Origin: Cedecea davisae DSM 4568
GTDB lineage: Bacteria > Pseudomonadota > Gammaproteobacteria > Enterobacterales > Enterobacteriaceae
Direction of reading: 5' to 3'
Length of the DNA stretch: 64,000 nt
Assembly (NCBI RefSeq): GCF_000412335.2
Contig: NZ_KE161030.1
Span: 704,015-768,014, forward strand
Each line of letters begins with the position of its first letter. Position 1 is the first letter of the stretch. The notes beneath the pieces are model-generated. The model was not told where the DNA came from and did no database searches. It worked only from the letters and a program-made list of their open reading frames with translations. Below, piece after piece: positions 21,589-30,754 of this stretch. Made by a program: the position numbers and the translations under genes.

Positions 21589-22368
21589 ATGCGAAATTCG
21601 TATTCTGTGGGGATGTTTTCTCTTATTATCGGTGGCGCATTGTTGATATTATCAGCAAATGCTGCGGCTGATGAAGTGGTTGCTCATACACGCCTGTTTC
21701 AAATAAAACTGGGTGCCTCAAGGCTTATCTATTTGCCAGGCATAAACGACATCGCTCTCGCCGTAAATAATCCCCAGGATTACCCGGTTCTTATTCAGGG
21801 AAAAGCCTGGCAGGAAGATAAAAAAACGCCTGCTCCATTTATCGTGACTCCGCCGGTGTCGCGTTTAGAAGGCCATCAGCAAAGTCGTTTAAGAGTGATA
21901 AAAGCAGGCGAGTTTGCTCAGGATCGCGAGACCCTGAGCTGGCTTTGCGTAGCGGGCATTCCGCCTAAAAACACCGATGTCTGGGCGCAAGATGAGAGAG
22001 AGCGTGCTCCCTCTTCTGCGGTTATCATGAACCTGGAAGTCAGCGCCCGCCAGTGCATTAAGCTGCTGGTTCGCCCCCCTTCGTTAAGCATTACCTCCCG
22101 GGAAGCCGCCGGGAACCTGGCCTGGTACAAAGATGGGAAGACGCTCGTGGCGCAGAACTCGTCTCCTCTTTATGTTCAATTAGCATCGGTGAGCATTGGC
22201 GGGCTGGCCGTGCCGGAGGTGACATATATTCCCCCTTACTCCTCGCGGACCTTTCCCGTTAGCAAGGAAGCCAAAGGCCCGATCAAATGGGTGGTGATAA
22301 CGGATGAAGGGGGGAGGAGTCGCGCTTACCAGTCATTGCCGGAGCTAGCCGCCCGGCCTAAGGGCTGA
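21589..22368 (+). CDS. Periplasmic chaperone, FGL type (Caf1M/PsaB/MyfB family)
   Basis: The 259-residue chaperone has a signal peptide (ending SANAAA), a domain-1 start (LFQIKLGASRLIYLPG) and the FGL hallmark: a long F1-G1 loop flanked by two cysteines (LSWLCVAGIPP and SARQCIKLLVRP) that form a conserved disulfide in the class. RDRETLSW-like text (QDRETLSWLCVA) and the G1 strand are intact. It works with the usher that starts 13 bp downstream to assemble the thin surface fibre. Confidence 0.9.
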   Translation: MRNSYSVGMFSLIIGGALLILSANAAADEVVAHTRLFQIKLGASRLIYLPGINDIALAVNNPQDYPVLIQGKAWQEDKKTPAPFIVTPPVSRLEGHQQSRLRVIKAGEFAQDRETLSWLCVAGIPPKNTDVWAQDERERAPSSAVIMNLEVSARQCIKLLVRPPSLSITSREAAGNLAWYKDGKTLVAQNSSPLYVQLASVSIGGLAVPEVTYIPPYSSRTFPVSKEAKGPIKWVVITDEGGRSRAYQSLPELAARPKG

Positions 22369-22381
22369 TTGAGCGCCCGCT

Positions 22382-24856
22382 ATGATGCCTCTGATACCTG
22401 TGCGCTATTTCGCCCTCACCCTGATGTTGTCCCCTTTTTACTGTGACGCCCAGCGCTGGGAGTTTGATGCCAGCCAGCTGGGGCTGAGTGATGCCAGCCT
22501 GGCCGTGTTTAATCAGGGAGGCCAGTTACCGGGAAGCTACCGCGTTGATGTGTTGCTGAACGGAGAAATTGTGGATACCCGCAATATTCTGTTCAGGAAA
22601 TTGGCGGGGGAACCTGAAAATGCCGGTCTCGTTCCCTGCCTGAGCATTGGGCTGCTTAACCAATACGGCATTCGGGTTGAAGATTATCCCCGGCTAACGC
22701 CGTCATCTTCTGATACCAGCCAGTGCAGCCACCTGAATGCCGTTCCCGGCGTGGAGGCGACGTTTAGTTTTTCCAGCCAGCAACTCCTGCTCACTGTTCC
22801 TCAGGCCGTTATGCGTCAGGTGTCGGGCGAGCTGGCGCCGCGGGAGCAATGGAATGACGGGCTCGATGCGCTCCTGCTGAATTACCAGGCCAGCATGTCG
22901 CATACGTCTTACCGTGGCTCGCGCCGCCAGCGAATGGACTCCCCGTTCATCCTGCTGGAGCCGGGGCTGAATATAGGCCCGTGGCGGCTGCGTCATTCTA
23001 CCAGTTGGCAGAAAAATGCCGGGCAGGGCGGCCGCTGGGAAACGGCGTATACCTTTGCCGAACGGGGTCTGTACGGGATGAAGAGCCGCCTGACGCTTGG
23101 CGCACGTTTTACCCCGTATGAGGTGTTCGACAGCGTTCCCTTCAGGGGCGTTATGCTCGGGACTGACGACGAGATGGTGCCTTTTAGCGAGCGCCGTTTT
23201 TCTCCGGTAGTCAGCGGCGTTGCCCGTTCGCTGGCGCGAGTGGTCGTCCGCCAGCAGGGGTACACCCTCTATGACGCCACCGTCGCGCCCGGCCCCTTCA
23301 GGCTGGGCAACTTAAGGCCGTTGTCCGGCGGCGGTGATTTGGACGTCACCGTTGAGGAGAGCAGCGGCTTAGCTCAGCATTTCATCGTGTCCTGGCAAAC
23401 ACCTTCCATCGCCGTGCATTCCGGTTACCTGAAATACAACCTGATGGCGGGGCAATATAATCCTGCCGGTCGTGTCAGCGGGCAGACAGGCATTGCACAG
23501 GCATCGGCAATATATGGCTTGCCGCTGGGGGCGACGATTTACGGCGGATTGCAGGGCGCTGAGCGCTTTCATGCCCTGTCGCTTGGGGTTGGCGTCTCGC
23601 TGGGCAGCGCCGGTAGCTTTTCTCTGGATACTACGCACGACCGCGTTCGTTCTAAAAATGCCTCACAGGGTAAGCAGTGGCGGGTGCGCTACAGCAAATC
23701 GGTGGATGCTACCCATTCATCGCTGGCATTAACCTGGGCCTGGTCTCCTGCGGCCGGCTACCGCACGTTGTCGGATGCCCTTGAGCGCAGATCGGTTCCC
23801 CGGGGTGGGATGATTTCCCGGGCGCAGCTGAGTTTTAATCAATCTCTGGGCGCGTTGGGCTACCTTAGCCTGAGCACCCGCCGAATCCGATACCGGCAGA
23901 GTGAAGAAAACGATCGCTCCGAAAGCATACGCTACAACACGCGTATCAAAGATCTCTCTCTGTCTCTGGACTGGACGCGCTCGCGCTGGCAGGGAAAAGT
24001 GGATCGGCTTCTCAGTATTATGTTCAGTATCCCACTGGGGAATATGTCCGGGGCTGAAACAATGGCTAGCGGGCAGATGTTGTCGTCCACCGCCGGCAAA
24101 GAAACCTGGATGACGGGACTGAGCGGCCAGGAGATGGGGCATCGCTTAAGCTGGAATGTGATGCAGCGTTTTTTGCCCGGCAACGCGGGTACCTGGTCGC
24201 AATCTCACTCCACAACCTCTCTGGGATGGCGTGGTTCTCAGGGGATCATGACGGCAAATTATAGCCGTAGCCCACAGGTTACAGGTCTTGGAGCCAGCCT
24301 GAGCGGGAGCGGCGTGCTGACTTCCGGGGGATGGGCGCTGGGGCAGCCGCTAAACGGCACGGCAGCATTAGTTGGCGCACCGGGAGCAGCAGAGATCCCG
24401 GTTGGAGGGTGGCCAGGGGTGAAAACCGATGGGCGGGGTTATACCGTCCTGAGCGGGCTGCAACCTTACCAGCGAAACGTTATCAGCCTCGATCCCGCTC
24501 GTCTGCCGCATGAGGCGGAGATAACCCGGACGGATATTCCCGTGGTACCGACCAACGGCGCGATTATTCCTGCCGTATTTGCGACTCATATCGGCAAAAA
24601 GGCGCTATTGGGTCTGACGGATAGCAGCGGGCAAGCCATCCCCTTCGGCTCCGTTGTTACGCCGGAAGCACAAAATAATGCCGGTAACGGCATCGTGGGT
24701 GAAAACGGAAAGGTCTATTTGTCCGGGCTTTCCGGGAAAGGATATTTGCAAATCCGCTGGGGTCTCTCAGCGCGGCAGTCCTGTCGGGCAGCATATCGTT
24801 TGCCGAAAGTTTCCGGCCCTGCTGGAATTTTTAGTGCATGGGCGAAGTGCTTGTGA
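22382..24856 (+). CDS. Outer-membrane usher of the FGL-type operon
   Basis: The 824-residue usher has a signal peptide (ending YCDAQ), an N-terminal domain (FDASQLGLSDASLAVFNQGG, then LPGSYRVDVLLNGE), a barrel with the conserved GMKSRLTLGARFTPYEVFDS and PFRGVMLGTDDEM segments and a C-terminal domain with the terminal cysteine pair (RQSCRAAY and AWAKCL). Its shorter length is usual for ushers of single-subunit FGL systems. No adhesin gene follows. The dlt-like operon faces it from the other strand about 95 bp downstream. Confidence 0.9.
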   Translation: MMPLIPVRYFALTLMLSPFYCDAQRWEFDASQLGLSDASLAVFNQGGQLPGSYRVDVLLNGEIVDTRNILFRKLAGEPENAGLVPCLSIGLLNQYGIRVEDYPRLTPSSSDTSQCSHLNAVPGVEATFSFSSQQLLLTVPQAVMRQVSGELAPREQWNDGLDALLLNYQASMSHTSYRGSRRQRMDSPFILLEPGLNIGPWRLRHSTSWQKNAGQGGRWETAYTFAERGLYGMKSRLTLGARFTPYEVFDSVPFRGVMLGTDDEMVPFSERRFSPVVSGVARSLARVVVRQQGYTLYDATVAPGPFRLGNLRPLSGGGDLDVTVEESSGLAQHFIVSWQTPSIAVHSGYLKYNLMAGQYNPAGRVSGQTGIAQASAIYGLPLGATIYGGLQGAERFHALSLGVGVSLGSAGSFSLDTTHDRVRSKNASQGKQWRVRYSKSVDATHSSLALTWAWSPAAGYRTLSDALERRSVPRGGMISRAQLSFNQSLGALGYLSLSTRRIRYRQSEENDRSESIRYNTRIKDLSLSLDWTRSRWQGKVDRLLSIMFSIPLGNMSGAETMASGQMLSSTAGKETWMTGLSGQEMGHRLSWNVMQRFLPGNAGTWSQSHSTTSLGWRGSQGIMTANYSRSPQVTGLGASLSGSGVLTSGGWALGQPLNGTAALVGAPGAAEIPVGGWPGVKTDGRGYTVLSGLQPYQRNVISLDPARLPHEAEITRTDIPVVPTNGAIIPAVFATHIGKKALLGLTDSSGQAIPFGSVVTPEAQNNAGNGIVGENGKVYLSGLSGKGYLQIRWGLSARQSCRAAYRLPKVSGPAGIFSAWAKCL

Positions 24857-24950: not shown

Positions 24951-25190
24951 TTAGCTGCGGTTTTCTTCAATATAACGAGCAAGGCTCTCCGGGGTTTTCA
25001 GCACGGTGGCGACTTCCGTCGGCGGTATCATACAGCCGTACAGATCCTGCACTTCCAGCACTAAATCCACCGCCAGAATAGAGTCGAGAATATCGGACTC
25101 AATCAGCTCATCGTTAAAGCCGACTTTGCGGGATAACACCTTTTCAAACAGGGCGAGAATGTCTTGTTCCATCTTTTTTTCCTGAGTCAT
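24951..25190 (-). CDS. dltC: DltC-like D-alanyl carrier protein
   Basis: The 79-residue acyl-carrier-type protein carries the phosphopantetheine attachment serine at residue 37 (ESDILDSILAVDLVLE). In dlt systems the carrier is loaded with D-alanine by DltA and delivers it to DltB at the membrane. The start overlaps the dltA stop by one base (TAATG), so translation is coupled. It is the last gene of the operon and is followed by a strong terminator. Length and helical pattern match DltC. Confidence 0.9.
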   Translation of the reverse strand: MTQEKKMEQDILALFEKVLSRKVGFNDELIESDILDSILAVDLVLEVQDLYGCMIPPTEVATVLKTPESLARYIEENRS

Positions 25191-26623
25191 TAATTCGTGC
25201 GAGCCTGGGTATCCAGCAGCTTGCGGTCGATTTTGCCGTTAGGGTTAAGCGGCAAAGCGTCTTTAATAATGATTTGCGAAGGCACCATATAAGGCGGGAT
25301 CACCTTCGAGAGCGAAGTTTTGATGGCTTCCGGCGCGAGGCCGGTTACGCAGAAAGCCGCAATACGCAGCACGCCGCCGCCGGACTTCATCAGCGGCAGC
25401 ACCACGGCCTCGCTAATGCCGGACATCGCCAGCAGGCGGTTCTCAATCTCGTTGATTTCAATCCGGTAGCCGTTCAATTTGATTTGGCTGTCGTTGCGGC
25501 CCTGGCAATAAAGCAGTCCGTCCTCGTAGCCGAGATCGCCGGTCCGGTAGCCCCGGAATTGCTCGCTTTCGCGGTGCAGTAATTTCTCTGCGTTTTCCTG
25601 AGGCAGCCCAAGGTAGCCGCGCATCACGTTTTTACCCCAGATAATCAGTTCACCTTCGGCGGTAATCTCCATTCTGGAGTCCGGCATCATGGTGCCAACC
25701 GGCAGCAGGTCGTTTTCGCTGAGCAGGATCTCATCGGTGATTTCGATAACCGTGGTGGCGATGGTCGCCTCCGTTGGCCCATAGGAGTTAAGAATTTTGG
25801 CCTGCGGGAAGCGTCGGCGCAGCTGCTTGACCAGCGCCTTATTCAGCACTTCGCCGATGAATACAAACACGCTCAGGTCGGGCAAATAGTCGCTGTTGAA
25901 CTGCGGGGAAAGCAGCTTCTGGTAGGCAAAAGAGGGCGTTGAAACCCAGGCCGAAACGCCGTTGGTTTTCAGGCGCTCGAGCCAGTTTTCGGCCGCGATG
26001 TCTTCTTTCGCATTCAGCACGATGTGCCCGCCGGTAGCGAGGTTTGCCAGCAGCGGGATCAGGGAAAGGTCGAAGCTGAACACCGCGTGGTTCATCAGCA
26101 CCGGCACGTCCGGCAGCGCAAAATCCTGGCGTACCCACTTCATGAAGTGCCACAGGCTCTCGCGCCCAATCTGCACGCCTTTCGGTTTCCCGGTGCTTCC
26201 TGAAGTAAACATGATATAGGCCAGGTTCTGCTCGGCCAGCGCTTTGCCCGTTTCGCCGGTTGCCACGAACTGCTTTGTCGCTACGTCGTAATAGCAGGGA
26301 GCGCTGGCAAGCTGGCAGATCTCTTTCAGCCTCTCCTGAGGGTAAATGCAGTCCACCGGAATATACGGAATGTTGTGCAGCAGGCAGCTATAAATAGCCA
26401 CGGCAAACTCGGCCTGCTGGTGCCCGTACAAAACCACCGGCGTTCCGGCGGGCTGGTGGCTCAGTTCGTAGCGCTGCGCCCAGTCCGCAACGGCGACGGA
26501 GAGCTGCTGCCAGGTCAGGGCGTAATCGCTGCCGCTGATGGCCAGCTGCTGGGGGCGTGCGGGGTCGAGTAATGCCGCACGCAGAAAATCCTGCAGTTCC
26601 TGAAGCTCGGGATGAAGTTTCAT
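25190..26623 (-). CDS. dltA: DltA-like D-alanine--carrier-protein ligase
   Basis: The 477-residue ANL-superfamily adenylating enzyme has motif A3 (YIMFTSGSTGKPKG), A5 (NSYGPTEATIA), A7 (YRTGDLG) and the C-terminal catalytic lysine motif (LPLNPNGKIDRK). In Gram-positive dlt systems this enzyme activates D-alanine with ATP and loads it on DltC. Its start overlaps the dltB stop by four bases (ATGA). Substrate choice is inferred from the operon, because the adenylation fold alone could also activate another amino acid. Confidence 0.9.
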   Translation of the reverse strand: MKLHPELQELQDFLRAALLDPARPQQLAISGSDYALTWQQLSVAVADWAQRYELSHQPAGTPVVLYGHQQAEFAVAIYSCLLHNIPYIPVDCIYPQERLKEICQLASAPCYYDVATKQFVATGETGKALAEQNLAYIMFTSGSTGKPKGVQIGRESLWHFMKWVRQDFALPDVPVLMNHAVFSFDLSLIPLLANLATGGHIVLNAKEDIAAENWLERLKTNGVSAWVSTPSFAYQKLLSPQFNSDYLPDLSVFVFIGEVLNKALVKQLRRRFPQAKILNSYGPTEATIATTVIEITDEILLSENDLLPVGTMMPDSRMEITAEGELIIWGKNVMRGYLGLPQENAEKLLHRESEQFRGYRTGDLGYEDGLLYCQGRNDSQIKLNGYRIEINEIENRLLAMSGISEAVVLPLMKSGGGVLRIAAFCVTGLAPEAIKTSLSKVIPPYMVPSQIIIKDALPLNPNGKIDRKLLDTQARTN

Positions 26624-27741
26624 AGAGGTGACATTCCGCTAAAGATGTAGAGGGAGGCCGCTGCGCTTGCCAGCGTCAGAATTCGTCCAAAAAACGCGAT
26701 AACCGGATGGCGTAATCCGTTGCTCAAAGCTGGGCTGCGTTTGGCTGACCACAGCAGCATGTTATGGGCAACGGAAATGGCGCCGAACAGCGCGCCGCTG
26801 ATAACATAGTGCCTTTCAAGCCCGTTCCATGCCCCCATGCAAAAGAGCGTGCAGAAAATGCCAACGTTCTGTGCCAGGGTTTTGTTTTGACGGAAGAAAT
26901 CGAGCTTCATCAGATTCATGTAAATCGGCATAAAGACCACGTCGCGCAGCCATTCAGACAGGCTGATGTGAAAGCGTCGCCAGAAGTCCTGCGGGTTTTT
27001 AGCCAGAATCGGCATATTAAAGTTGGCCGGAATGTTCAGACCAAACAGGCGGCCAGCGCCGATAGCCATGTTGCTGTAACCGGCAAAATCGAAGTAGAGA
27101 TAGGCGCTGTAGGCCAGCGACATCACAACGCCGACGCTGAGCGTAAACGGGCGGTGGCTCCAGGATTCAATCACCAGGTTATCTATCAGCATGGCAAACA
27201 AAAATTTTTGGATAATGCCGGTCACGATTTGCTCCAGCGCCAGTAAAAACTGTTCGCGGCTGAGGCGGAAAACCGGTTTGTTAATGTCGTTAACCCAGCT
27301 GCGCCAGCGGTACATTGGGCCAGCGAGGATAATAAACGGCATAAACAGATAGCAAAAATAATGCAGGAAATTTCGCCCGTCTTTTTTACTGCGGTAAAGC
27401 AGTACGTCAATCGCGCGGAAGGTCATAAAGGAGAGGCCAATCATGCCCAGGTGGTTATTAAGGTGTAGTTTCACCAAAAACAGCGGTAGCAGGGTCAGGC
27501 TCACCGCCTGCCATGTTTTTAACCAGCCTTTCTCTTTTAATGTGACAAGAATATAAAAAGCCAGGAACACCGCGATCGGAACAATATAATCGCCCTGGAA
27601 GATATAGCCCCAGCCTAATGCCGCCAGCACCGAAAAAGCGGATAAATAAGTCAGCCGGTGATTCAATACCCGGTTAACCAGCGCAAACAACAGCGCCGAT
27701 GAAAACAGAAAGAAAAAAAATGTTCCTGAGCTGTACATCAT
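26620..27741 (-). CDS. dltB: DltB-like MBOAT membrane acyltransferase
   Basis: The 373-residue polytopic protein belongs to the MBOAT family. The segment QDFWRRFHISLSEWLRD carries one conserved histidine (residue 258). About 48 residues later, where DltB and AlgI proteins have the invariant histidine in WHG, this protein reads GAWNGLERHYV, giving Asn306. Other histidines (311, 326) lie nearby. In known systems DltB moves the D-alanyl group from DltC across the membrane. Whether this one is catalytic with Asn is an open question. It overlaps dltA and follows the dltX-like gene by seven bases. Confidence 0.88.
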   Translation of the reverse strand: MMYSSGTFFFFLFSSALLFALVNRVLNHRLTYLSAFSVLAALGWGYIFQGDYIVPIAVFLAFYILVTLKEKGWLKTWQAVSLTLLPLFLVKLHLNNHLGMIGLSFMTFRAIDVLLYRSKKDGRNFLHYFCYLFMPFIILAGPMYRWRSWVNDINKPVFRLSREQFLLALEQIVTGIIQKFLFAMLIDNLVIESWSHRPFTLSVGVVMSLAYSAYLYFDFAGYSNMAIGAGRLFGLNIPANFNMPILAKNPQDFWRRFHISLSEWLRDVVFMPIYMNLMKLDFFRQNKTLAQNVGIFCTLFCMGAWNGLERHYVISGALFGAISVAHNMLLWSAKRSPALSNGLRHPVIAFFGRILTLASAAASLYIFSGMSPL

Positions 27742-27748
27742 TCATCCT

Positions 27749-27871
27749 TCAGAATTTTTGATATTCAAAATGCACTTTTAAATTCATGCTGTCGTCAACG
27801 GATGACCACGCAACAACGGTTATCGCTAAAAAGAGATAAAGGAAAAAAAGGCGGGCTGCTGTTTTCATCAT
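27749..27871 (-). CDS. dltX: DltX-like microprotein with C-terminal FxYxxF motif
   Basis: This 40-residue gene, too short for common gene-finding cut-offs, lies between dltD and dltB. It starts ATGATG overlapping the dltD TGA and ends seven bases before dltB. One hydrophobic helix (LFFLYLFLAITVVAW) is followed by a short extracytoplasmic tail ending HFEYQKF. The final FEYQKF fits the FxYxxF ending known for Gram-positive DltX, which carries the D-alanyl group in the membrane step through its tyrosine. Gene position, size, topology and motif all agree. Confidence 0.85.
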   Translation of the reverse strand: MMKTAARLFFLYLFLAITVVAWSSVDDSMNLKVHFEYQKF

Positions 27872-29010
27872 TTAAAACTCCCGGCAATAAATCGGTCCAT
27901 GGCGACCCACGCCAGTTCTGTGGGGTGAAGGCGATCCCAGTTCCAGCCGTTTTGGTAGGGCTGAGCGTACATGTCGAAGTAACGAACCTGGTTTTGCTCA
28001 AGCGTTGCCGTAACCTGGCGGTCAACGGGGCGGAATTTCTCCGTGTTCTTAAGCGCCCACGGATTGAGCGGGTCGATAATCACCACAAACTGCGCGTGGC
28101 GCTGTTTCAGGAGCGCAATTGTTGCCTGGAAAGCCTGCATCTGGCGGCTAACTGGCGGGGTTGGGTACCAGTCTTCCGGCGTTTTGTTATCTTCGAAAAC
28201 GGACTTATCCATCCACAATGTCGCCGCGCTTTCCTGGCGGGACTGGTTCAGAACGCGCGCCTGGGCCAGCTGTTGGTCCCAGTCAGGTTGCACAACGTTG
28301 GCGCTCATCTGCTGCGGCCAGGTACGGTGTTTTGGCTGCGGGGTAATATGCAGCATTGCCAGCCAGTCGTTTTTTACCATGGTGCAGAAGTTAGCAAACT
28401 GATAATTCACTTCCTGCCAGATAACCTGCGGGTGCCAGCCGTAAACTTTCATTTCGCCAAAGGTTAAATGGCTAATATCTTCTTTATCAATATGCTGCAA
28501 ATAATGAGTCAGGTAAGGGCGAGTTTGCTCATTTTTCATCAGCGGATTAAAAATTGCCGCCGGGAAATGGTCGGCAAAAATTGCCGGAGGAATGCTGTCA
28601 AAATAAAAACTATCCGGGGCATAGAGCAGAACAATTTTACTGTTAGCGTTGATGTCATTTTTGAAACGGGAGAGCAGTAAAAACTGAGTAATGTTATCAA
28701 CATAACTATCGCCATAGGCGACCACCGGGCGATGCAACTGGTTGTTAAAGTAATTATATACCGCGTAGTGCTCATCTTCGGAGGTAGAGACTTCCGAAGC
28801 ACCGAGGAAGAAAATCGCATTTCCCTGTAACGCATGGGATATTGTGGCTATTTTTTCGCGCTGTTCTTTTGGCGTGCCTTCCATTGTTTTGATCAGCGGC
28901 TGGAATGTCAAAGGCGGATCGAAGCTCGTCACCAGCGGGTGAACGCAAAGGAACAAGACAGCAAGCAGCGCCATCGAGATATGTAGGCAGAGAGTATTTT
29001 TAATTTTCAT
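27868..29010 (-). CDS. dltD: DltD-like SGNH/esterase-type D-alanyl transfer protein
   Basis: The 380-residue protein has one N-terminal membrane anchor (LHISMALLAVLFLCVH) and a periplasmic domain. FFLGASEVSTSED supplies the nucleophilic serine of the DltD GSSE-like motif, and WDRLHPTELAW supplies Asp-x-x-His near the C-terminus, giving the triad of the family. ATG 29010 is preferred over an upstream TTG. It would transfer the acyl group to the final acceptor. Enterobacteria lack teichoic acids, so the acceptor is probably another envelope glycan or LPS. It opens the operon. Confidence 0.88.
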   Translation of the reverse strand: MKIKNTLCLHISMALLAVLFLCVHPLVTSFDPPLTFQPLIKTMEGTPKEQREKIATISHALQGNAIFFLGASEVSTSEDEHYAVYNYFNNQLHRPVVAYGDSYVDNITQFLLLSRFKNDINANSKIVLLYAPDSFYFDSIPPAIFADHFPAAIFNPLMKNEQTRPYLTHYLQHIDKEDISHLTFGEMKVYGWHPQVIWQEVNYQFANFCTMVKNDWLAMLHITPQPKHRTWPQQMSANVVQPDWDQQLAQARVLNQSRQESAATLWMDKSVFEDNKTPEDWYPTPPVSRQMQAFQATIALLKQRHAQFVVIIDPLNPWALKNTEKFRPVDRQVTATLEQNQVRYFDMYAQPYQNGWNWDRLHPTELAWVAMDRFIAGSFK

Positions 29011-29659
29011 TATAAGAGTAACGCTATATGACAACCATTTGTTTAAAATTTGTTAGTTTTTAACCTCACGGTAAATCCAGCCCCGTGAATTTTGACACTA
29101 TATACCAGGAATCTGGCGATGATGAGCGTTGCTGTGTAACGGTATGTACAAGCTCCGACACTCCGGAATCCCGGCGGTTGTTTGTGCCTGGCCGCTATTT
29201 TTTACGGCGGTTAGCGGCCTAATTAATTGCTCGCCAGGTAATTTGTACCGGGCCTATTGTCGGCTTCTCCGGAGAAGGGAATAAGTTGTTTAACCACTCG
29301 CTGTCCTATCGTTTACATAAATGTTTTAGCTGTTTTATATTTCCGTGGTGATTGTTTTTAAACGCGCCCACCCTTGTTGTTAACATAACTCATTCTAATC
29401 AAATGGTTTTTTGTGTTGTGATTTGGCGGTGTGGCGTTTTTTAATCTTATTTTATAAGGATGATTTTGTGTTTGTTTGATGTTTTGTATATTGAGTGAGT
29501 TATGAATTGATATTTATCATTTAACAATAGCGATGATGCTCACGAGAATAAAAAATAGGAAGATATTGTGGAACTTTTATTTGTAACGTTCATTTCGCCA
29601 TTGAATAATGTCCTGGCTTCACAGGGGTGAAGCATTTTTCAACTATTAGGGACGAAAAG
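29011..29659. promoter_or_regulatory. Divergent regulatory region between the dlt operon and the porin gene
   Basis: About 650 bp without a gene. TGTTTA-AAATT-TGTTAG at 29040-29056 matches a PhoP box at 10 of 12 defined positions and lies just upstream of the dltD start. The right half (29260-29600) is AT-rich, as expected for a long porin promoter under OmpR-type control, but I could not assign OmpR sites. A good ribosome binding site (AGGGACG) precedes the porin ATG at 29660. Confidence 0.45.
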
Positions 29660-30754
29660 ATGAAATTAAAATTAATCGTGGTGGCCGTCTCAACGTTATT
29701 AGCGGCAGGGGCGGTTAACGCCGCCGGCGTTTATAATAAAGAGGGTAACAAGCTGGATCTCTATGGAAAGGTTACCGCCCTCCATTATTTCAGTGACTCA
29801 AACGGTGCTAATGGGGATAAAACCTATGCGCGCTTAGGGTTTAAAGGCGAAACCCGCATCACCCATCAGCTCACCGGGTACGGCCAGTGGGAATATAACT
29901 TCAGCGGTAATAATGCCGAATCCGACGGTGCGAAGGGCAATGCAACGCGCCTGGCTTTTGCCGGGCTAAAATTTGCCAACTTTGGCAGCTTTGATTACGG
30001 GCGTAACTTTGGCGTGGCTTACGACATTGGCTCATGGACGGATATGCTGCCGGAATTTGGCGGCGACACATGGACCCAAACGGATGTCTTCCTCACCGGG
30101 CGTACCAACGGCGTTGCCACCTGGCGTAATAGCGACTTCTTCGGCCTGGTTGAGGGACTGAATGTCGCCCTTCAGTACCAGGGCAAAGAAGATGACGCCA
30201 CGCGCGGGCTGGGCAAACAGCACGGCGACGGCTGGGGCATGTCTACTAGCTATGAGTCCCAGGGCTTTGGCATAGGCGTGACTTATGCCGCATCGGACAG
30301 GACTGACGCTCAGGTTGCACAGGGGCGGCTTGTATCGGGTGACAATGCCGCAGGTAATAAGGCAGAAGTCTGGGCGGCGGGCCTGAAGTATGACGTCAAC
30401 TCGCTCTATCTTGCGGCGACGTTTTCAGAAACCCATAACATGACCACCTACGGCGGCAACAGCAACATCGCCAATAAAACGCAAAACTTCGAAGTCGTTG
30501 CGCAATATCAGTTTGAGTCGGGCCTGCGTCCGTCCCTGGCTTATCTGAAATCAAAAGGCAAAGATCTGAATACCGTCGGAGGCAATCAGGATCTTGTTGA
30601 GTATATTTCTATTGGCGCTAACTACTACTTCAACAAAAATATGTCGACCTACACGGATTATAAAATCAATCTGCTGGACGACAGCGAATTTACCCGCGCT
30701 GCACAAATCAACACCGACAATGTTTTTGCCGTCGGCATGGTCTATCAGTTCTGA
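29660..30754 (+). CDS. General trimeric porin, OmpC/OmpF family
   Basis: The 364-residue protein has a signal peptide ([21 protein letters not shown]) and the mature start [17 protein letters not shown]. It carries the loop-3 eyelet segment PEFGGDTW and ends in YQF, with the terminal Phe needed for barrel insertion. It would form a 16-strand trimeric pore for small hydrophilic solutes. The N-terminus and eyelet place it with OmpC/OmpF/PhoE/OmpN-type porins, but the paralogue cannot be named from sequence alone. It is monocistronic and divergent from the dlt operon. Confidence 0.92.

Follow-up and report, generated by a model that had tools for sequence, protein, structure and literature searches.

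A candidate DltX-like acyl-shuttle gene in the dlt operon of Cedecea davisae and other Proteobacteria

The operon and its small gene

The minus strand of the window, i.e. of the whole stretch of 64,000 nucleotides of the Cedecea davisae DSM 4568 genome that was analysed, carries a dlt operon in the order dltD-X-B-A-C, where X denotes a short open frame between dltD and dltB. The genes of this operon and the codons for the terminal hexapeptide of the small gene product are located as follows:

27868 to 29010, minus strand: dltD-like gene of an SGNH acyltransferase (Pfam DltD 82.4 bits, cut-off 22.7; NCBIfam TIGR04092 52.8 bits, cut-off 150)
27749 to 27871, minus strand: dltX-like gene, 40 codons for 40 amino acids, an open frame between dltD and dltB
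27752 to 27769, minus strand: codons of the terminal hexapeptide FEYQKF, the Tyr37 codon being 27761–27763
26620 to 27741, minus strand: dltB-like gene of an MBOAT protein, 373 amino acids (TIGR04091 197.2 bits, cut-off 375; match to the solved DltB 6BUG)
25190 to 26623, minus strand: dltA-like gene of an amino-acid:carrier-protein ligase, 477 amino acids (best NCBIfam match DltA PRK04813, 381.8 bits, cut-off 476; the closest solved chains are DltA)
24951 to 25190, minus strand: dltC-like gene of a carrier protein, 79 amino acids (Pfam PP-binding 33.9 bits, cut-off 20.8; NCBIfam DltC models below their cut-offs)

The small gene translates as MMKTAARLFFLYLFLAITVVAWSSVDDSMNLKVHFEYQKF. Its ATG shares four bases with the stop of dltD (ATGA, 27868–27871), and its stop is separated from the ATG of dltB by seven bases (27742–27748, AGGATGA on the coding strand), so that the 40-codon gene overlapping dltD, with a seven-base gap to dltB, that an earlier note on this DNA had described is confirmed by the coordinates. 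The other part of that description, a product with one membrane helix that ends in FEYQKF, agrees with the translation and with hydropathy and charge: there is one hydrophobic stretch (the best 15-residue Kyte-Doolittle window spans residues 8–22, with a mean of 2.48), the part that is N-terminal to it has a net charge of +2, and the motif tyrosine lies 15 residues beyond it. Hydropathy and charge predict, therefore, a single membrane helix (approximately residues 8–22) with the N-terminus inside and an 18-residue tail that, by charge, would be periplasmic. The gene had also been called unlisted, which holds only in part: in RefSeq, a homologous gene on two plasmids is present as WP_255423173.1, "hypothetical protein".

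As to the partner proteins, the dltD product keeps, as read in its translation, the serine block GASE and the terminal D-R-L-H-P (translation might also begin further upstream, at a TTG at 29034); among the dlt loci compared, the G[AS]SE serine block of DltD is found in 81 of 83 and the terminal DxxH histidine block in 82 of 83. The D-S-I of DltC is read as the putative phosphopantetheine site. The window DltB matches TIGR04091 over positions 3–379 of 380 (E 4.9e-58), below the equivalog cut-off, and ends with IFSGMSPL, without the C-terminal tyrosine motif, unlike the PatA/AlgI-type MBOATs. All four window proteins, DltA–D, score below the cut-offs of their NCBIfam Dlt models; judging by their names, these models were built on Gram-positive proteins. 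In an unrooted tree of 44 DltB/MBOAT rows (midpoint rooting for drawing only; 6 of the 8 listed Gram-positive sequences and 13 of the 19 listed long MBOATs included), in which the long MBOATs have long branches and the Photorhabdus sequences an unlike composition, the proteobacterial DltBs form one group that joins the Gram-positive DltB (support 100/99), apart from the 13 long MBOATs. It is from this grouping that the whole pathway is taken to be Dlt, not a split PatA. Within the group, the window DltB pairs with that of Cedecea neteri (support 99/96).

The operon is flanked by what, from the translations, we take to be fimbrial chaperone/usher-like genes and a porin gene (21589–24856 and 29660–30754). 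Just upstream of dltD, at 29040–29056, lies the element TGTTTAAAATTTGTTAG, which presumably resembles a PhoP box in reverse orientation. Such a PhoP-box-like element is the best match in 18 of the 47 loci examined, nearly always at the same distance.

Distribution, conservation and selection

Among 392 genomes of the window's family, 38 have a short DltB, which is unbroken in 36 of them and broken in two (G316, G590); the microprotein is likewise intact at 36 of these 38 loci, and at the other two (G316, G647) the tail is present, and the N-terminal part lies in another frame. A contig scan with the peptide patterns KNPQDFW and FCMG[AI]WN yielded 61 loci, 58 of them of the Dlt type, and the gene was present in all 56 that are readable, the remaining two being cut at a contig edge (L087) or decayed (L141). 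The named hosts include Pectobacterium, Dickeya, Kosakonia, Phytobacter, Enterobacter, Lelliottia, Pluralibacter, Buttiauxella and Cedecea, as well as Photorhabdus, one Serratia marcescens, Symbiopectobacterium, Candidimonas and Paralcaligenes. The Candidimonas family contributes a high-scoring DltB in 45 of 250 genomes, and the motif frame was found in 25 of 25 of its loci (the best 25 of the 45). In the sample of the phylum, the DltB profile matched 122 of 398 genomes, with a high-scoring short DltB in only six, all from the window's family and including the window's own genome. A DltD family search of the class gave three of 369 genomes, namely the window's own and two with weak matches over frames with stops, and the region 26000–29100 had no DNA match among complete E. 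coli genomes.

The earlier note had proposed to look for short frames with an FxYxxF end at other dlt loci. In a set of 84 loci from Enterobacterales and Alcaligenaceae (57 named loci, L084–L140, two plasmids and the 25 Candidimonas-family loci; the decayed L141 and L148, cut at its record start, were excluded), the terminal hexapeptide [FY][EQ]YQ[KQ]F stands at the stop beside dltB in 83, the sole miss being L087 at its contig edge. Both frame and final motif are, accordingly, conserved in related dlt loci, where their lack had been named as what would speak against the gene. These 83 loci represent 77 distinct stretches (six are duplicates or identical), and their hexapeptides are FEYQKF (40), FQYQQF (19), YEYQQF (14) and FEYQQF (10), so that the Q-Y-Q-x-F variant occurs in 19 loci of the 84-locus set. 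A start in frame with the four-base overlap of the dltD stop is available in 72 of the 83; from this coupled start, the product has 39–41 amino acids in 57 of the 72 and 50–69 amino acids in 15. Since all 15 long products belong to the Candidimonas family (15 of its 25 loci: L181, L182, L185–L189, L191–L198), the size of the microprotein is not fixed on the Alcaligenaceae side. The spacing between the small gene and dltB consists mostly of short gaps or overlaps.

Several observations concern the context of individual operons. In Klebsiella electrica and Enterobacter cloacae, the dlt operon is plasmid-borne (L146, NZ_CP041250.1; L147, NZ_CP071862.1) and flanked by IS elements, and a Klebsiella pneumoniae plasmid (L148, NZ_CP063883.1) carries the dltB-A-C end, cut at the record start, with a pmrD gene nearby; two of these three plasmids are typed as conjugative. 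Decaying operons are seen in Enterobacter sp. EA-1 (L077/L141) and Symbiopectobacterium (L060/L133 and L076/L140), dltB being broken in EA-1 and one Symbiopectobacterium, and the N-terminus of the microprotein being out of frame in EA-1 and another Symbiopectobacterium. The dlt operon of a contig labelled Chryseobacterium (L090) nests among those of Enterobacteriaceae and is probably a contamination of that assembly. In Photorhabdus (L074, L075, L084–L086), the gene order is dltC-D-X-B-A, with a neighbour that we take, from its translation, to be lysC-like; among the four genomes in the genus group, G420 and G510 show the long MBOAT only.

Could a frame of this kind be a chance opening between dltD and dltB, held open by the neighbouring genes? 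Its shortness and the four bases that it shares with dltD would suit such a frame. Against this stand the hexapeptide, kept at the stop in 83 of 84 loci, and the persistence of the frame where DltB is no more than 46–49% identical to that of the window, in Photorhabdus and Alcaligenaceae. The motif itself is rare: of the 758 open reading frames of 20–120 amino acids in the window, the dltX-like gene is the only one that ends with [FY]xYxxF (approximately 0.04 would be expected from composition), and among 7298 frames of this size from 56 named loci, 56 end so, 55 at the place of dltX and just one elsewhere (L113). Furthermore, in 63 distinct coding sequences for 50 distinct proteins, gathered before the Candidimonas-family loci were added, the differences at codon positions 1, 2 and 3 are 0.241, 0.105 and 0.419, an excess at the third position, and the median dN/dS is 0.125 (1066 usable of 1953 pairs). 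As judged from these substitution patterns, the gene is under purifying selection; the motif tyrosine, with E-Y-Q-x-F around it, and one leucine of the helix are invariant in all 50 proteins, and helix and linker are mostly variable. On conservation and selection, the chance frame was rejected as extremely improbable.

Relation to known systems and altered active-site residues

How close is the microprotein to DltX of Firmicutes (PF12459, formerly DUF3687)? Searched against Pfam, it found no family at E<=10, and the PF12459 cut-off of 25 bits was not reached; the Pfam DltX model, run over the window's own genome, had its best match (E 1.23) at another place. NCBIfam yielded nothing useful, and the PDB sequence search gave a single match, a bacteriorhodopsin helix, at E 1.4. 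Compared by hhalign with four Gram-positive DltX sequences, which come from plasmid loci (three annotated, one identified here in an unannotated record), the microprotein received a probability of 1.7%, both profiles being short and shallow, and in the alignment with these four only the tyrosine and the last phenylalanine are invariant. Since neither the Pfam nor the profile-profile comparison gave similarity, sequence homology to DltX is not claimed. The likeness is one of anatomy, place and partner: DltX, too, has approximately 40–50 amino acids, one helix, a positive N-terminus and a C-terminal [FY]xYxxF, and is encoded with dlt genes (PMC5541007, PMC12148441). It differs in its ending, [FY]IYN[ED]F in the four sequences versus [FY][EQ]YQ[KQ]F, and in its usual place just before dltA rather than between dltD and dltB. 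Of the earlier designation as DltX-like, then, the topology, the C-terminal motif and the complete dlt operon stand, and by anatomy, place and partner it appears sound; membership in the family by sequence does not follow from it.

The tyrosine motif is of interest because of its role elsewhere. In Gram-positive bacteria, DltB moves D-alanine from DltC to the tyrosine in the FXYXXF of DltX, which binds both DltB and DltD, and from there the residue passes to the serine of DltD (PMC12148441). The PatA/AlgI-type MBOATs share the terminal motif and the SGNH partner, and PatA acetylates the tyrosine of its fused motif, using acetyl-CoA, not a carrier protein, as the donor; the same paper, on the shared MBOAT-SGNH mechanism, states that non-Dlt pathways have no DltX-like microprotein (PMC12148441). 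Unlike the short DltBs, the MBOATs of this type have the motif fused to them. Among the best matches of the own-genome and order searches, out of 63 matching genomes, all six short DltBs had the microprotein gene beside them, and all 25 long MBOATs carried their own C-terminal F[IL]YxxF. Likewise, the microprotein profile matched 25 of 275 genomes of the family, every one among those with a short DltB, and had no match in the other 250, including one with the long MBOAT only (G177). Hence, the tyrosine motif and the MBOAT are either fused or neighbours, as would be expected if the two cooperate. The genome of the window also encodes a second, long MBOAT of the fused acyl-shuttle type, which ends in GSFIYFNF (L002, G000:C1:1794604-1795686); the idea that the tyrosine-motif MBOAT is truncated in this genome was rejected, this separate protein with its own motif being present.

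Three residues of DltB and one of DltA, encoded as follows, bear on the chemistry of such a relay:

26968 to 26970, minus strand: codon of DltB His258, the equivalent of His289 of Streptococcus thermophilus DltB
26824 to 26826, minus strand: codon of DltB Asn306, which aligns with the catalytic His336 of S. thermophilus DltB
26764 to 26766, minus strand: codon of DltB His326, not a histidine in S. thermophilus DltB
25856 to 25858, minus strand: codon of DltA Ile256, at the place of Cys269, the D-/L-alanine selector, of Bacillus cereus DltA

His336 of DltB has been called invariant and active (PMC11035591), and the histidine has been described in a review as the hallmark of the MBOAT family (PMC10213974). 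Nevertheless, every intact proteobacterial DltB examined has asparagine at this place, and none of His258, Asn306 and His326 varies among the 17 proteobacterial DltB rows aligned. Counted by locus, among loci caught by one sequence pattern and with some genomes repeated, asparagine takes the place of His336 in 139 of 140 MBOATs without their own motif, the exception (L159) being a 443-residue frame that belongs to a distantly related genome in the sample of the phylum; histidine is found in 26 of 26 MBOATs with their own motif and in 6 of 6 Gram-positive DltBs (two more with His came from a separate scan). The contig scan alone cannot prove Asn306 to be fixed, because the pattern FCMG[AI]WN presupposes the asparagine; the profile searches of the order, the family, the phylum sample and the Candidimonas family are independent of this pattern, though the profiles of the last three were built from Asn-bearing sequences, and Asn306 is fixed across the Enterobacterales and the Alcaligenaceae side. 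The corresponding pair of ACAT1 and DGAT1 has its asparagine on the HC helix and its histidine on the core helix (PMC11035591). In the proteobacterial DltB, the two seem to be exchanged: the HC helix would carry the histidine (His258) and the core helix the asparagine (Asn306). Since the usual catalytic histidine is absent, His258 and Asn306 probably carry the chemistry of DltB, His326 perhaps taking part, and the Gram-positive model of acyl transfer cannot be carried over to Tyr37 unchanged.

A comparable change affects the first step of the pathway. In B. cereus DltA, Cys269 helps to select D- over L-alanine (PMC4176424, PMC8972799). In the DltA alignment, which covers 27 of the 29 listed loci, isoleucine stands at this place in 7 of 7 rows of the Enterobacteriaceae branch, including Dickeya, Pectobacterium, Serratia and a Klebsiella plasmid, whereas cysteine is kept in the two aligned Photorhabdus rows, on the Alcaligenaceae side (14 rows, 13 distinct loci) and in the Gram-positives (4 of 4 rows); a wider motif scan of DltA agrees with this split. 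With isoleucine instead of cysteine, the acyl group of the window operon may therefore not be D-alanine. The earlier note had envisaged the full relay, with D-alanine, as conserved: the parts of the relay are indeed kept, whereas Asn306 in place of His336 and Ile256 in place of Cys269 leave neither its chemistry nor its acyl group secured.

A possible acyl relay and its implications

Vibrio AlmEFG has, to our knowledge, no MBOAT, SGNH protein or microprotein. It is similar to the dlt operons in transferring an amino acid (glycine) from a carrier protein to the Gram-negative envelope, namely to lipid A, and differs in that AlmG is not homologous to DltB in sequence (PMC3783018). Dlt operons themselves have been studied in a few Gram-negative bacteria. 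A dltB mutant of Dickeya is polymyxin-sensitive, the modified substrate being unknown in that work (PMC3544676), and dra of Bordetella is reported to confer resistance to antimicrobial peptides and to place D-alanine onto an unidentified outer-membrane component (PMC9410548). As far as the accessible text of these two papers goes, they deal with dltA–D or the dra locus, without the microprotein, the His to Asn change of DltB or the Cys to Ile change of DltA (PMC3544676, PMC9410548); in Dickeya, Pectobacterium and Photorhabdus, we find the same operon including the microprotein. Another paper places DltX in Firmicutes and, in the portion accessible, writes dlt(X)ABCD and assigns "these genes" to a few Gram-negatives, leaving the X ambiguous (PMC5541007). 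As far as it was accessible, the literature searched contained no description of DltX in Gram-negative dlt operons.

Taking the comparisons together, we consider it very probable that the 40-codon gene, whose translation we infer, is a true fifth member of the dlt operon that encodes a DltX-like acyl shuttle. The microprotein would span the inner membrane once, with its N-terminus inside and its periplasmic tail docked in the funnel of DltB. DltA would load a small amino acid onto DltC, and DltB would shift the acyl group from the DltC thioester to Tyr37 of the microprotein; the tail might then swing to DltD, the serine of which would accept the acyl group and pass it on to an acceptor in the envelope. 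By analogy with Dickeya and Bordetella, the operon would most likely protect in this way against cationic peptides, by attaching an aminoacyl ester, the amine of which stays free, to a molecule of the envelope, the microprotein acting as the transmembrane shuttle.

A real small subunit could, instead, assemble or stabilise the DltB/DltD complex without its tyrosine ever being acylated. Gram-positive DltX does bind both proteins (PMC12148441), a regulatory role has been proposed (PMC11035591), and where DltB lacks its hallmark histidine the usual tyrosine acylation may not run. Against this, E-Y-Q-x-F is invariant in all 50 distinct proteins amid a mostly variable helix and linker (with Q-Y-Q-x-F in 19 loci of the larger set), and the long MBOATs share the tyrosine motif, which in PatA is acetylated (PMC12148441), so that we regard this explanation as unlikely. 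The operon might also be a remnant of a Gram-positive-like dlt system that has degenerated and lost its activity; this would explain both Asn306 and Ile256, and the decayed copies in Enterobacter sp. EA-1 and Symbiopectobacterium might be adduced for it. Yet the microprotein is intact, and dltB unbroken, in 36 of the 38 genomes of the family with a short DltB, Asn306 is fixed on both the enterobacterial and the Alcaligenaceae side, and the Dickeya dltB mutant is sensitive to polymyxin (PMC3544676), which makes a relic highly improbable.

Beyond the shuttle function of the small gene, it can tentatively be envisaged, as a possibility that we hold with some doubt, that the proteobacterial Dlt systems form a distinct branch of MBOAT-SGNH pathways, in which the shuttle tyrosine would reside on a separate peptide, the transfer would proceed without the hallmark histidine (by the exchanged Asn/His pair or by the new His326), the acyl group would have changed from D-alanine in Enterobacteriaceae, and the whole would have been carried onto plasmids of Klebsiella and Enterobacter. 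The change in DltA predicts that the branch with cysteine transfers D-alanine and that the branch with isoleucine possibly transfers something else. The Gram-negative dlt operons have been described, in the published work accessible to us, by dltA–D only; if the proposal is true, the shuttle peptide that Enterobacterales and Alcaligenaceae encode as a protein of its own would supply what has been lacking for a reconstitution of the pathway in vitro, and these bacteria would offer a natural test of how an MBOAT functions with asparagine in place of the catalytic histidine.
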